Positions 16,405 to 44,775 of a stretch of DNA of 64,000 bases are shown here, piece by piece. Position 1 is the stretch's first letter; each line of letters starts with the position of its first letter. Origin of the DNA: Micromonospora profundi (lineage in GTDB: Bacteria; Actinomycetota; Actinomycetes; Mycobacteriales; Micromonosporaceae); contig NZ_JAATJK010000001.1 in the NCBI RefSeq assembly GCF_011927785.1, forward strand, positions 310,001-374,000, read 5' to 3'. The notes under the pieces were generated by a model that was given only the letters and a program-made list of their open reading frames with translations, searched no databases and was not told the DNA's origin. The position numbers and the translations under genes were made by a program.

Positions 16405-17097
16405 ATGAGCAGTCGTGGCAGGTCGAGGGTCTGCGTCGTCGGAGCCTCAGGAAAACTCGGTAGGTACATGGTCCGGCACGCGCTGGACAAGGGCTACGAG
16501 GTCGTCGGCGTGTGCCGTGCGGGCAGCGTGGGAAAACTGGACGAGTTCAAGGGCCGCATCACAGTCGTCGCGGGGCCGACGAACGATCGTGACGTCATCG
16601 GGCGGGCGGTCGCCGGCTGCGACGGTGTGCTCACCGTCCTGGTCCCCTGGGGTGTGCACGGCTACTCGACGGGCACGGCGCGGGCGGTCCTGGACCACGC
16701 CGACCCGGGAGCACGCCTGGTCTTCTCGTGCGGCTGGCACGTCACGCGCGACGGCCAGGACGTCTACCCGTGGAGGCTCAGGGCGTTCGTCGCGGCCTTC
16801 GGTGTGCTCGCGCGGCTGGCCCGCTTCGCCGACATCCGCGACCAGGTGCAGGCGTGCCGGCAGATCTTCGCCAGCGACACCCGGTGGACGGTGGTGCGCG
16901 GCAGCGACCTTGAGGAGGGCGACAGCCAGGGCCTACCCGTCTGGAGCCGGCACGTGGGCGATCCCGTACTCAAGAGCAACATCACGCGCCGGGTGGACTT
17001 CGCCCTGTTCATGGTGGACGCGCTGACGAACGACGAACTGGTCCACGAGGCACCGGCGATCGTCGGCTGCCGGACACCCTCGGCGCTGGCCGCATAG
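16405..17097 (+). CDS. NAD(P)-binding Rossmann protein (NmrA/SDR-like)
   Basis: The 230-residue protein has an N-terminal dinucleotide-binding motif GASGKLG (residues 13-19) and an NmrA-like layout (FKGRITVVAGPTNDRDVIGRAV ... VLTVLVPWGVHG). It lacks an evident Tyr-x-x-x-Lys catalytic pair, so it may be a redox sensor or an atypical reductase rather than a classical SDR enzyme. GAGAGGAC precedes the ATG at 16405. It is on the same strand as the XRE gene with a 35-base gap, so it could be the third gene of that operon. A palindromic repeat element begins at its stop codon. Confidence 0.8.
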   Translation: MSSRGRSRVCVVGASGKLGRYMVRHALDKGYEVVGVCRAGSVGKLDEFKGRITVVAGPTNDRDVIGRAVAGCDGVLTVLVPWGVHGYSTGTARAVLDHADPGARLVFSCGWHVTRDGQDVYPWRLRAFVAAFGVLARLARFADIRDQVQACRQIFASDTRWTVVRGSDLEEGDSQGLPVWSRHVGDPVLKSNITRRVDFALFMVDALTNDELVHEAPAIVGCRTPSALAA

Positions 17098-17162
17098 GCC
17101 CTTCCTGCGCAAGGAAGGGCCCCTTCTTAACGCCTGGTGCATAAGAAGGGGCCCCTCCTAAC
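17097..17162. repeat. GGGGCCCC palindromic repeat element (copy 1)
   Basis: Two overlapping perfect hairpins are visible: 17097-17106 with 17112-17121, and 17117-17129 with 17142-17154 (GGGCCCCTTCTTA arm). Bases 17110-17162 match 43991-44043 inside the cysG-type gene at 45 of 53 positions without gaps. The element lies between the end of the NAD(P)-binding gene and the 3' end of the SARP gene and could also terminate transcription of either. Confidence 0.85.
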
Positions 17163-22972: not shown

Positions 22973-23045
22973 TGCGCCCGGCAGGATTCGAACCTGCGGC
23001 CTTGGGATTAGAAGTCCCCTGCTCTATCCGCTGAGCTACGGGCGC
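22973..23045 (-). tRNA. tRNA-Arg (anticodon TCT)
   Basis: Read on the minus strand, the 73 bases fold into a full cloverleaf. The acceptor stem GCGCCCG pairs with CGGGCGC, the D-arm is GCTCAGCGGATAGAGC, and the anticodon stem GGGGA/TCCC surrounds the loop CTTCTAA (anticodon TCT). The T-arm is GCAGGTTCGAATCCTGC. The discriminator base is A and no CCA is encoded. It reads AGA codons, rare in this GC-rich genome. No integrase-like gene flanks it. Confidence 0.97.
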
Positions 23046-43514: not shown

Positions 43515-43542
43515 CAACGCGCGTCCGGCTCGGAGGTGCGCT

Positions 43543-44775
43543 GTGAGCGCCAGCCCGTACCCCCTCGGTCTGCGGCTCGACGGGCGGCGGGTGGTAGTGG
43601 TGGGCGGCGGCGCGGTCGCCACCCGGCGCGTCCCGGCGCTGCTGGACGCCGGTGCGGACGTCCTGCTCGTGGCACCGGAGCTGACCCCGGCGCTGCGCGC
43701 GCACGTCGACGCGGGGCGGCTGCGCTGGGTGCCGCGCCGGTTCGCGCCCGACGACCTGGACGGGGCGTGGCTGGTCCAGGTAGCGATCGACGACCCCCTC
43801 GCCGCGGCGTCGGTGAGCGCCGCCGCCGCCGAGCGGCGGATCTTCTGCGTCCGGGCCGACGACCGCACGGCGGCCACCGCCTGGACCCCGGCGGTGACCC
43901 GGCACGGCCCGGTCACCGTGGCGGTGCTCGGCGGCGGCGACCCGCGACGGGCAATGAGTGTCCGAGACGCGATCCGCAACCTCCTCGGTGCAAGGAAGGG
44001 CCCCCTGTTAACGCCTGCGGTAGAGGAAGGGGCCCTTCCTAACGCGGGCGGCGGACGGGTGGCACTGGTCGGGGCCGGCCCCGGTGACCCAGAGCTGATC
44101 ACCGTAAAGGGCTGGCGGCTGCTCACCGAGGCCGACGTGGTCGTCGCCGACCGGCTGGTGCCCGGGCTGCTCCTGGACGAGCTACGCCCCGATGTCGAGC
44201 TGGTGGACGCCTCGAAGATCCCCTACGGCCCGTCCCGGGCACAGGAGGAGATCAACCAGATCCTGGTCGACCGTGCCCTGGCTGGCGCCTTCGTGGTGCG
44301 GCTCAAGGGCGGCGACCCGTACGTCTTCGGCCGGGGCGGCGAAGAGCTGCTTGCCTGCGCGGCGGCCGGCGTGCCGGTGACCGTCGTGCCGGGAGTGACC
44401 AGCTCGATCGCCGCCCCTGCGGCGGCCGGGATTCCGGTCACCCACCGGGGGGTGGCGCACGAGTTCACTGTGGTCTCCGGCCACCTGGCACCCGACTCGC
44501 CGGCGTCGCTTGTGCGGTGGGACGCCCTGGCGGGCCTGCGCGGCACCTTGGTGATCCTGATGGGGCTGAAGAACCTCGCTGCCATCACTGCAACCCTCAT
44601 CGCCCACGGCCGACCGCCGCAGACGCCGGCAGCCGTCGTCCAGGAGGCCACCACGGGCGCTCAGCGGGTGCTGCGCTCGACGCTCGACGCGGTGGCCGCC
44701 GACGCGGTGGCGGCCGACCTCCGCCCGCCAGCCGTCGTGGTGGTCGGCGACGTGGTGGGCGCCCTGGACGGGTGA
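43543..44775 (+). CDS. cysG: Precorrin-2 dehydrogenase / uroporphyrinogen-III C-methyltransferase fusion
   Basis: The 410-residue protein combines an N-terminal NAD-dependent precorrin-2 dehydrogenase domain (GGGAVATRRVPALLDAGADV; residues ~8-145) with a C-terminal S-adenosylmethionine uroporphyrinogen-III methyltransferase (GAGPGDPELITVKGWRLL, VVVADRLV, VVRLKGGDPYVFGRGGEEL, GIPVTHRGVAHEF; ~172-405). It supplies precorrin-2 for B12 or siroheme. The dedicated ferrochelatase helices of enterobacterial CysG are shortened. Residues 150-167, between the domains, are encoded by a palindromic repeat element (43991-44043). The GTG at 43543 follows GGAGGTGC. It is the last gene of the cobalamin operon. 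Confidence 0.92.
   Translation: MSASPYPLGLRLDGRRVVVVGGGAVATRRVPALLDAGADVLLVAPELTPALRAHVDAGRLRWVPRRFAPDDLDGAWLVQVAIDDPLAAASVSAAAAERRIFCVRADDRTAATAWTPAVTRHGPVTVAVLGGGDPRRAMSVRDAIRNLLGARKGPLLTPAVEEGALPNAGGGRVALVGAGPGDPELITVKGWRLLTEADVVVADRLVPGLLLDELRPDVELVDASKIPYGPSRAQEEINQILVDRALAGAFVVRLKGGDPYVFGRGGEELLACAAAGVPVTVVPGVTSSIAAPAAAGIPVTHRGVAHEFTVVSGHLAPDSPASLVRWDALAGLRGTLVILMGLKNLAAITATLIAHGRPPQTPAAVVQEATTGAQRVLRSTLDAVAADAVAADLRPPAVVVVGDVVGALDG
43991..44043 (+). repeat. GGGGCCCC palindromic repeat (copy 2) inside the cysG-type gene
   Basis: The 53 bases match the intergenic copy 17110-17162 at 45 positions without gaps. The outer arms AGGAAGGGCCCC (43993-44004) and 44029-44040 are a perfect 12-bp inverted repeat. 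In the reading frame used it encodes RKGPLLTPAVEEGALPN; the other two forward frames contain stops (TAA and TAG). The element forms the interdomain linker. Confidence 0.9.

Follow-up and report, generated by a model that had tools for sequence, protein, structure and literature searches.

An 18-residue stretch of the CysG-type enzyme of Micromonospora profundi is encoded by a copy of a dispersed palindromic repeat, which lies between the two catalytic domains of the protein. Very probably, this repeat is a non-autonomous palindromic element of the Micromonosporaceae that is mostly found directly after stop codons and is occasionally read in frame within genes, and the cysG copy would be an old, tolerated insertion that now serves as an interdomain linker. 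The copy was found in a contiguous stretch of 64,000 nucleotides (contig NZ_JAATJK010000001.1, positions 310,001 to 374,000; hereafter ‘the window’), and the features on which the argument rests are collected in the table below.

Table. Features of the cysG gene, of the repeat copies in the window (window positions) and of further in-frame copies (positions in the M. profundi genome)
Feature	Position	Strand	Basis and details
cysG-type gene (precorrin-2 dehydrogenase + uroporphyrinogen-III C-methyltransferase)	43543..44775	+	410 aa, GTG start; ORF list, solved relative 1pjq
NAD(P)-binding dehydrogenase domain PF13241, residues 10-116	43570..43890	+	Pfam match
Tetrapyrrole methylase domain PF00590, residues 173-384	44059..44694	+	Pfam match
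Palindromic repeat, 52-nt core in cysG	43992..44043	+	covariance model R1, 72.6 bits
Stem, left arm in cysG copy	43993..44010	+	15/18 positions pairable in window copy
Stem, right arm in cysG copy	44023..44040	+	
Half-site 1 in cysG copy	43996..44014	+	starts of the two half-sites 31 nt apart
Half-site 2 in cysG copy	44027..44045	+	
TTA leucine codon, element-borne	44008..44010	+	read from sequence
Second window copy, noncoding	17111..17162	+	R1 78.7 bits; 13 nt after TAG (17095-17097)
In-frame copy, CcdA-type protein, PF02683	5663948		LEGS-ARKGTLLTPGVEEGALPN-ASADG
In-frame copy, Mg-chelatase-like AAA protein	4932313		element read from opposite strand; GK-VLGGAPSTTESDNKGPFL-ASEAA
C-terminal tail, probably an additional in-frame case	658816		

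The sequence-only reading had described the element as open in the cysG frame, closed in the other two forward frames and encoding the linker between the two domains, and the domain search and the recount bear this description out. The repeat core, together with the codon GCA at 43990, encodes the peptide ARKGPLLTPAVEEGALPN (CysG residues 150-167; codons GCA AGG AAG GGC CCC CTG TTA ACG CCT GCG GTA GAG GAA GGG GCC CTT CCT AAC), while the remaining forward frames are stopped inside the element by TAA at 44009-44011 and by TAA at 44040-44042, the latter terminating an ORF of 43536-44042. Among solved structures, the closest relatives are siroheme synthases (1pjq, for example), which align over residues 7-154 and 169-408, and two M. 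profundi CysG entries are 99% identical to the protein of the window. In an AlphaFold2 model, residues 151-169 form a coil with pLDDT below 50, flanked by a helix (134-150) and a strand (172-177), so that the repeat is predicted to form a disordered interdomain linker; because the model is weak (36 rows, mean pLDDT 71, pTM 0.44) and six further segments also fall below 50, this prediction is only a guide. The linker peptide GPLLTPAVEEGALPN is probably made in CysG.

The copy at 43991-44043 and the noncoding copy at 17110-17162 differ at eight positions, without gaps (45/53, in agreement with the original count; the comparison within family D15 gives 85% over 54 nt), and the segment that can be aligned across copies was refined to a core of 52 nt. 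Matches to the half-site AAGGGCCCCTTCTTAACGC with up to three mismatches number three in the window and none in 100 shuffles of it; those to the half-site AAGGGGCCCTTCCTAACGC, at the same tolerance in the whole genome, number 64 + 44, versus 3 + 0 for a reversed control. A consensus, AAGGAAGGGCCCCTTCTTAACGCCTGGTGTATAGGAAGGGGCCCTTCCTAAC, was obtained from 21 gapless copies of the same genome, and the covariance model R1 was built from these copies, among them the one in cysG, whose score (E 3.9e-16) is therefore that of a member of the model’s own set. The family thus defined has a 52-nt core, an 18-bp imperfect stem and two similar half-sites 31 nt apart. An extra half-site with its own inverted repeat (GGCCCTTCCTGCGCAAGGAAGGGCC) occupies 17098-17122, partly ahead of the noncoding window copy and partly within it, which would suit a repeat composed of modular half-sites. 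A search of the window against Rfam at the gathering score returned a single match, a tRNA at 22973-23045, and the repeat matches no Rfam family, so that its assignment to a known RNA family was rejected; no paper on the repeat was found, by topic or by sequence, within open-licence PMC text.

Searches with R1 establish how widely the family is dispersed. The 6.93-Mb genome of M. profundi yields 118 matches at E <=1, corresponding to 63 places, of which 60 are credible (L177-L179, with E-values of 0.018, 0.019 and 0.025, were excluded as weak). At E <=0.001, matches are present in 89 of the 101 Micromonospora genomes sampled and in 46 of the 121 Micromonosporaceae genomes sampled, representing 17 of 44 genera; many genomes hold at least 58 matches (genus sample) or at least 48 (family sample). 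A class-wide sample contains matches in 10 of 118 genomes, including M. profundi itself and one further Micromonospora, and the other eight match weakly (one to three matches each, best E 2.5e-6). Since matches at this distance are few and weak, the family belongs mainly to the Micromonosporaceae. In each of two genomes from other genera of that family (G156 and G209), several copies share identical high scores, a pattern that hints at recent amplification outside Micromonospora.

The position of the copies relative to genes is far from random. The left edge of 44 of the 60 places falls close to a coding stop codon, from 2 nt inside it to 17 nt beyond it, as compared to 10 of 2164 random positions of the same loci; in this and all following counts, coding or noncoding status comes from a GC-frame rule rather than from annotation. 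The same placement after a stop codon is seen for 31 of the 37 copies not classed as coding in a second genome (G021). At 21 of the 60 places, each of the two edges has a coding stop within 200 nt. This placement suggests a possible role at the 3' ends of genes. L175 and L167, which appear to lie at gene starts or shortly before them, were left out of the count. Few copies are found in the third of the chromosome most distant from dnaA (C1:5958541-5959023): by successive thirds of the distance, the 60 places number 28, 29 and 3 (Rayleigh R 0.38, p about 2e-4).

A small minority of copies lies in frame within genes. The GC-frame rule pointed to four candidates for coding through the repeat among the 60 places, of which three were accepted; the fourth (L139, at 3690168) passed the rule and was dropped, its right flank being without the usual codon pattern. 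The three accepted genes are unrelated to each other and encode CysG, a CcdA-type membrane protein and a Mg-chelatase-like AAA protein. Their copies specify a recurrent peptide, RKGxLLTPxVEEGxLPN in CysG and CcdA and its reverse-strand counterpart LGxAPSTTxSDNKxPFL in the AAA protein. A loose pattern of this peptide is present in 55 of 120 CysG, 58 of 120 CcdA and, in the reverse-strand type, 8 of 120 AAA homologues among those listed; three cross-controls gave none among 120 each. Among the listed AAA homologues, the spacing between two fixed motifs is 30 residues in 101 of 120, and 45 in the M. profundi protein. In G021, two of 39 copies pass the GC-frame rule and the other 37 carry no coding-through signal; by sequence, one of the two lies in a CcdA-type protein, and the other (L291, G021:C1:203300-204800) has no Pfam match. 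The copy in L291 is apparently read in yet another frame, a third one, within a predicted 327-aa protein, and this departure from the frame of the recurrent peptide counts against the reading preferred here.

The sequence-only reading had further suggested that the bases by which the cysG copy differs from the noncoding one, including those that avoid TAA, might be adaptive. That suggestion did not survive: 26 of the 60 places in the genome are open in the cysG frame, among them 22 of the 56 that are not classed as coding. It is further opposed by the loop TTAACGCCTNNGGTAGAGSARGG, which (with up to one mismatch) occurs in 43 of the 101 genomes of the genus and reaches up to 116 matches, and by the 37 copies of G021 without a coding signal. 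Since the family is often free of stops in one frame per strand, copies within genes can be read through.

The many available orthologues of cysG allow the history of its copy to be followed. The gene is present in all 151 genus genomes sampled, and 182 linkers were extracted from 187 cysG loci, the other five having yielded no dehydrogenase part. R1 finds no match in the cysG linkers of the searched loci of other genera, and those of the fetched loci of Actinoplanes, Dactylosporangium, Plantactinospora and Streptomyces look unrelated by eye; sharing of the same linker residues by distant genera, which would have pointed to chance or to ancestral coding sequence, was thus not seen in the loci searched. 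Within the genus, many Micromonospora lineages also have differing linkers. A tree of cysG was built from 120 of the 182 extracted genes with the linker excluded (identical and short rows and most outgroup rows were omitted), and the element was scored as present at R1 >=20 bits, which holds for 41 rows. The presence of the element changes 18 times on this tree, at least 13 of these on well-supported branches. Salinispora, which is nested inside Micromonospora on the tree, is without the element, as are L064, L065 and L091, three records under the name Micromonospora that fall with the outgroup. It occurs in most lineages that arose after the earliest sampled branch (L282), itself without the element, and many linkers that lack an R1 match look, by visual inspection, like a decayed form of it.

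This wide spread, together with the decayed forms, suggests an old insertion followed by repeated decay or replacement, and the insertion in cysG probably took place close to the base of the genus, once the earliest sampled branch had separated. The proposal of a repeat family invading a tolerated interdomain site, in the manner of Rickettsia palindromic elements (RPEs), is therefore upheld as regards dispersal and the existence of further in-frame copies, and is not upheld as regards recency. A single old event would account for the copy rather than several, and repeated gain at the same site may have contributed, the tree counting changes irrespective of their direction. No clean ‘empty site’ was found among the cysG linkers; those free of the element differ in both length and sequence, so that insertion and exchange of an older linker are not separated by them, and the choice of insertion over exchange is to be read as our inference. 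Four linkers (L210, L235, L253 and L266) contain long low-complexity runs beside the element, such as repeated AAGT or NPSAGG, the longest of the four reaching 108 residues.

The sequence of events that we favour would run as follows. Most copies of a short non-autonomous repeat family would land directly after stop codons, and a few would come to lie inside genes, at sites where the protein tolerates a hydrophilic stretch. In cysG, an old insertion would have supplied the linker that joins the two enzyme domains, and that copy would then have been kept, decayed or replaced, lineage by lineage. Family membership, in-frame reading, the existence of further in-frame copies, their distribution and the predicted disorder of the linker follow directly from the computations described here; the copies within genes would be tolerated rather than beneficial.

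A rather improbable alternative is that the coding copies are retained for a role of the nucleic acid itself, for example as part of an mRNA structure or as a site of binding, and that the left-arm TTA codon may couple this role to translation. In its favour, the integrity of the cysG element follows the abundance of the family: among 95 genomes, 32 of the 39 that have 40 or more R1 matches carry the element, as do 3 of 8 with intermediate numbers and 2 of the 48 that have 10 or fewer, although these counts cover both strands and are lower bounds in the 37 of 101 genomes with at least 56 matches. For 11 phylogenetically independent pairs (19 loci were joined to genomes through identical linkers), a mean of 6.9 differ in the same way, 0.1 in the opposite way and 4.1 not at all, with a median p of 0.016 (range 0.008-0.22); since the pairs mostly agree, shared ancestry does not fully explain the relation. 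Furthermore, across 40 cysG copies, the element has a pS of 0.20 and a pN of 0.19, versus 0.36 and 0.075 for the methyltransferase domain, and 22 windows of 17 codons drawn from both domains all have a higher pS (0.26-0.47), with the pN of the element level with the highest of them. The protein sequence of the element is thus loosely held and its nucleotides are held relatively tightly, but the copies compared had been chosen by nucleotide score, which biases the result. As it stands, this conservation exceeds what a merely tolerated linker would predict, and it counts against the reading that we prefer. The TTA codon is likewise kept in 32 of 44 element-bearing linkers, while TTA accounts for 2 of the 1843 leucines that the domains of these genes contain; these 44 omit L041, L042, L046, L051 and L059, which have the same linkers as other loci, and because two identical pairs remain (L058/L245 and L067/L270), they represent 42 distinct genes (32/42).

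The structure of the cysG copies counts against such a role, although a retained hairpin is conceivable. Their stems retain 11-15 of 18 pairs and are thus incomplete, so that retention of the coding copies for the sake of a perfect hairpin is not supported. In a pooled comparison that mixes genomes, cysG copies fold less stably than noncoding ones (-22.9 versus -27.1 kcal/mol, p 0.007). Within single genomes, the cysG copy and the noncoding mean differ by about 1 kcal/mol in G021 (-22.6/-23.7) and G066 (-23.5/-24.9), where the cysG copy folds nearly as well, by about 3 in M. profundi (-28.2/-31.3) and by about 10 in G063 (-13.6/-24.1).

Comparably doubtful is the proposal that noncoding copies renew the one in cysG, through gene conversion or re-insertion, and that this keeps it intact wherever the family is abundant. 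The relation to copy number agrees with it, as do A-type loops nested among B-type rows of the tree (L255 and L268) and the right-arm end of the cysG copy in two genomes, being CCTAAC in M. profundi, the commonest in its sample (33/52), and CTTAAC in G021, again the commonest (17/39). In G063 and G066, however, the right-arm end of the cysG copy is not the commonest of the respective sample; genome-specific homogenisation by right-arm type was accordingly discarded, the outcome being mixed in the four genomes and the counts elsewhere only suggestive. Six genomes (G001, G003, G005, G036, G055 and G059) also tell against refreshing, since their B-type loop (GGATTC) matches cysG only, with 48 to 104 matches to the A-type, and gene conversion is therefore not the rule. 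The type of loop (A or B) changes five times on the tree versus a mean of 11.6 when shuffled, and those five changes make some exchange between copies possible.

More improbable still is the extended notion of a gene 3'-end signal maintained by the host through a putative factor, in which the copies within cysG, ccdA and other genes would act as translation-coupled regulatory or processing sites by way of the left-arm TTA and would decay jointly with the noncoding copies upon loss of the factor. A chance similarity, or an origin of the intergenic copies from an ancestral cysG coding segment, for which the sole point is that one copy lies in a gene, is refuted by the shuffles, by the number of places and of genera with matches, by the same type of peptide in three unrelated protein families and by the differing cysG linkers of other genera.

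Palindromes that code for protein are best known from Rickettsia, and are encountered here in conserved genes of a much-sequenced actinomycete genus; a recent review, in its passage on the subject, treats a similar route to new protein sequence in other prokaryotes as only conceivable (PMC10969869). Since there are many cysG orthologues, with elements that range from intact to decayed, the fate of a repeat inserted in a protein can be traced. In addition, a function of the family, or its mobiliser, becomes directly testable through the tight positioning behind stop codons and through the link of abundance with the integrity of coding copies.

Among known systems, REP/RAYT palindromes resemble the Micromonospora repeat in being short, palindromic, multicopy and located near gene ends. 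However, mobilisation by a RAYT was rejected: the IS200-type transposase domain Y1_Tnp (PF01797) has no match in the M. profundi genome, and across the genus, where it occurs in 28 of 101 genomes, its presence does not vary with copy number (found in 10 of the 39 genomes having 40 or more matches, and in 15 of the 53 having 10 or fewer; p 0.82). The two ends of the core also read AAGG and TAAC, and thus differ from the GTAG and CGTC tags given in PMC3733652. Miniature transposable elements (MITEs) and the RU elements of enterobacteria are likewise small non-autonomous repeats, some of which, according to the relevant passage of PMC2759123, lie inside genes; the 52-nt core is shorter than RU units (103-168 bp), and of the hallmarks of MITEs, no target-site duplication was noticed by eye in the printed flanks and no parent transposon was identified.

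The closest likeness, drawn by description, is to RPEs: both are dispersed palindromes that occur intergenically and, in frame, inside unrelated genes, and that specify a recurrent peptide. A multicopy palindrome, in-frame copies in intact-looking unrelated genes and the recurrent peptide are all found in Micromonospora; the length differs, the core (52 nt) being a third of the approximately 150 bp given for RPEs in the section of PMC10969869 that describes them. By the same section, nearly half of the 44 RPEs of R. conorii lie inside genes, as compared to 3-4 of 60 here, where most copies instead follow directly upon stop codons. The Micromonospora repeat is, moreover, that of a GC-rich actinomycete, and it carries, as read off the sequences, a TTA in the main frame of either strand. 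On account of the third of the length, the small share within genes and a comparison made by description, it is not placed among the RPEs, and appears instead to be similar to them in kind.
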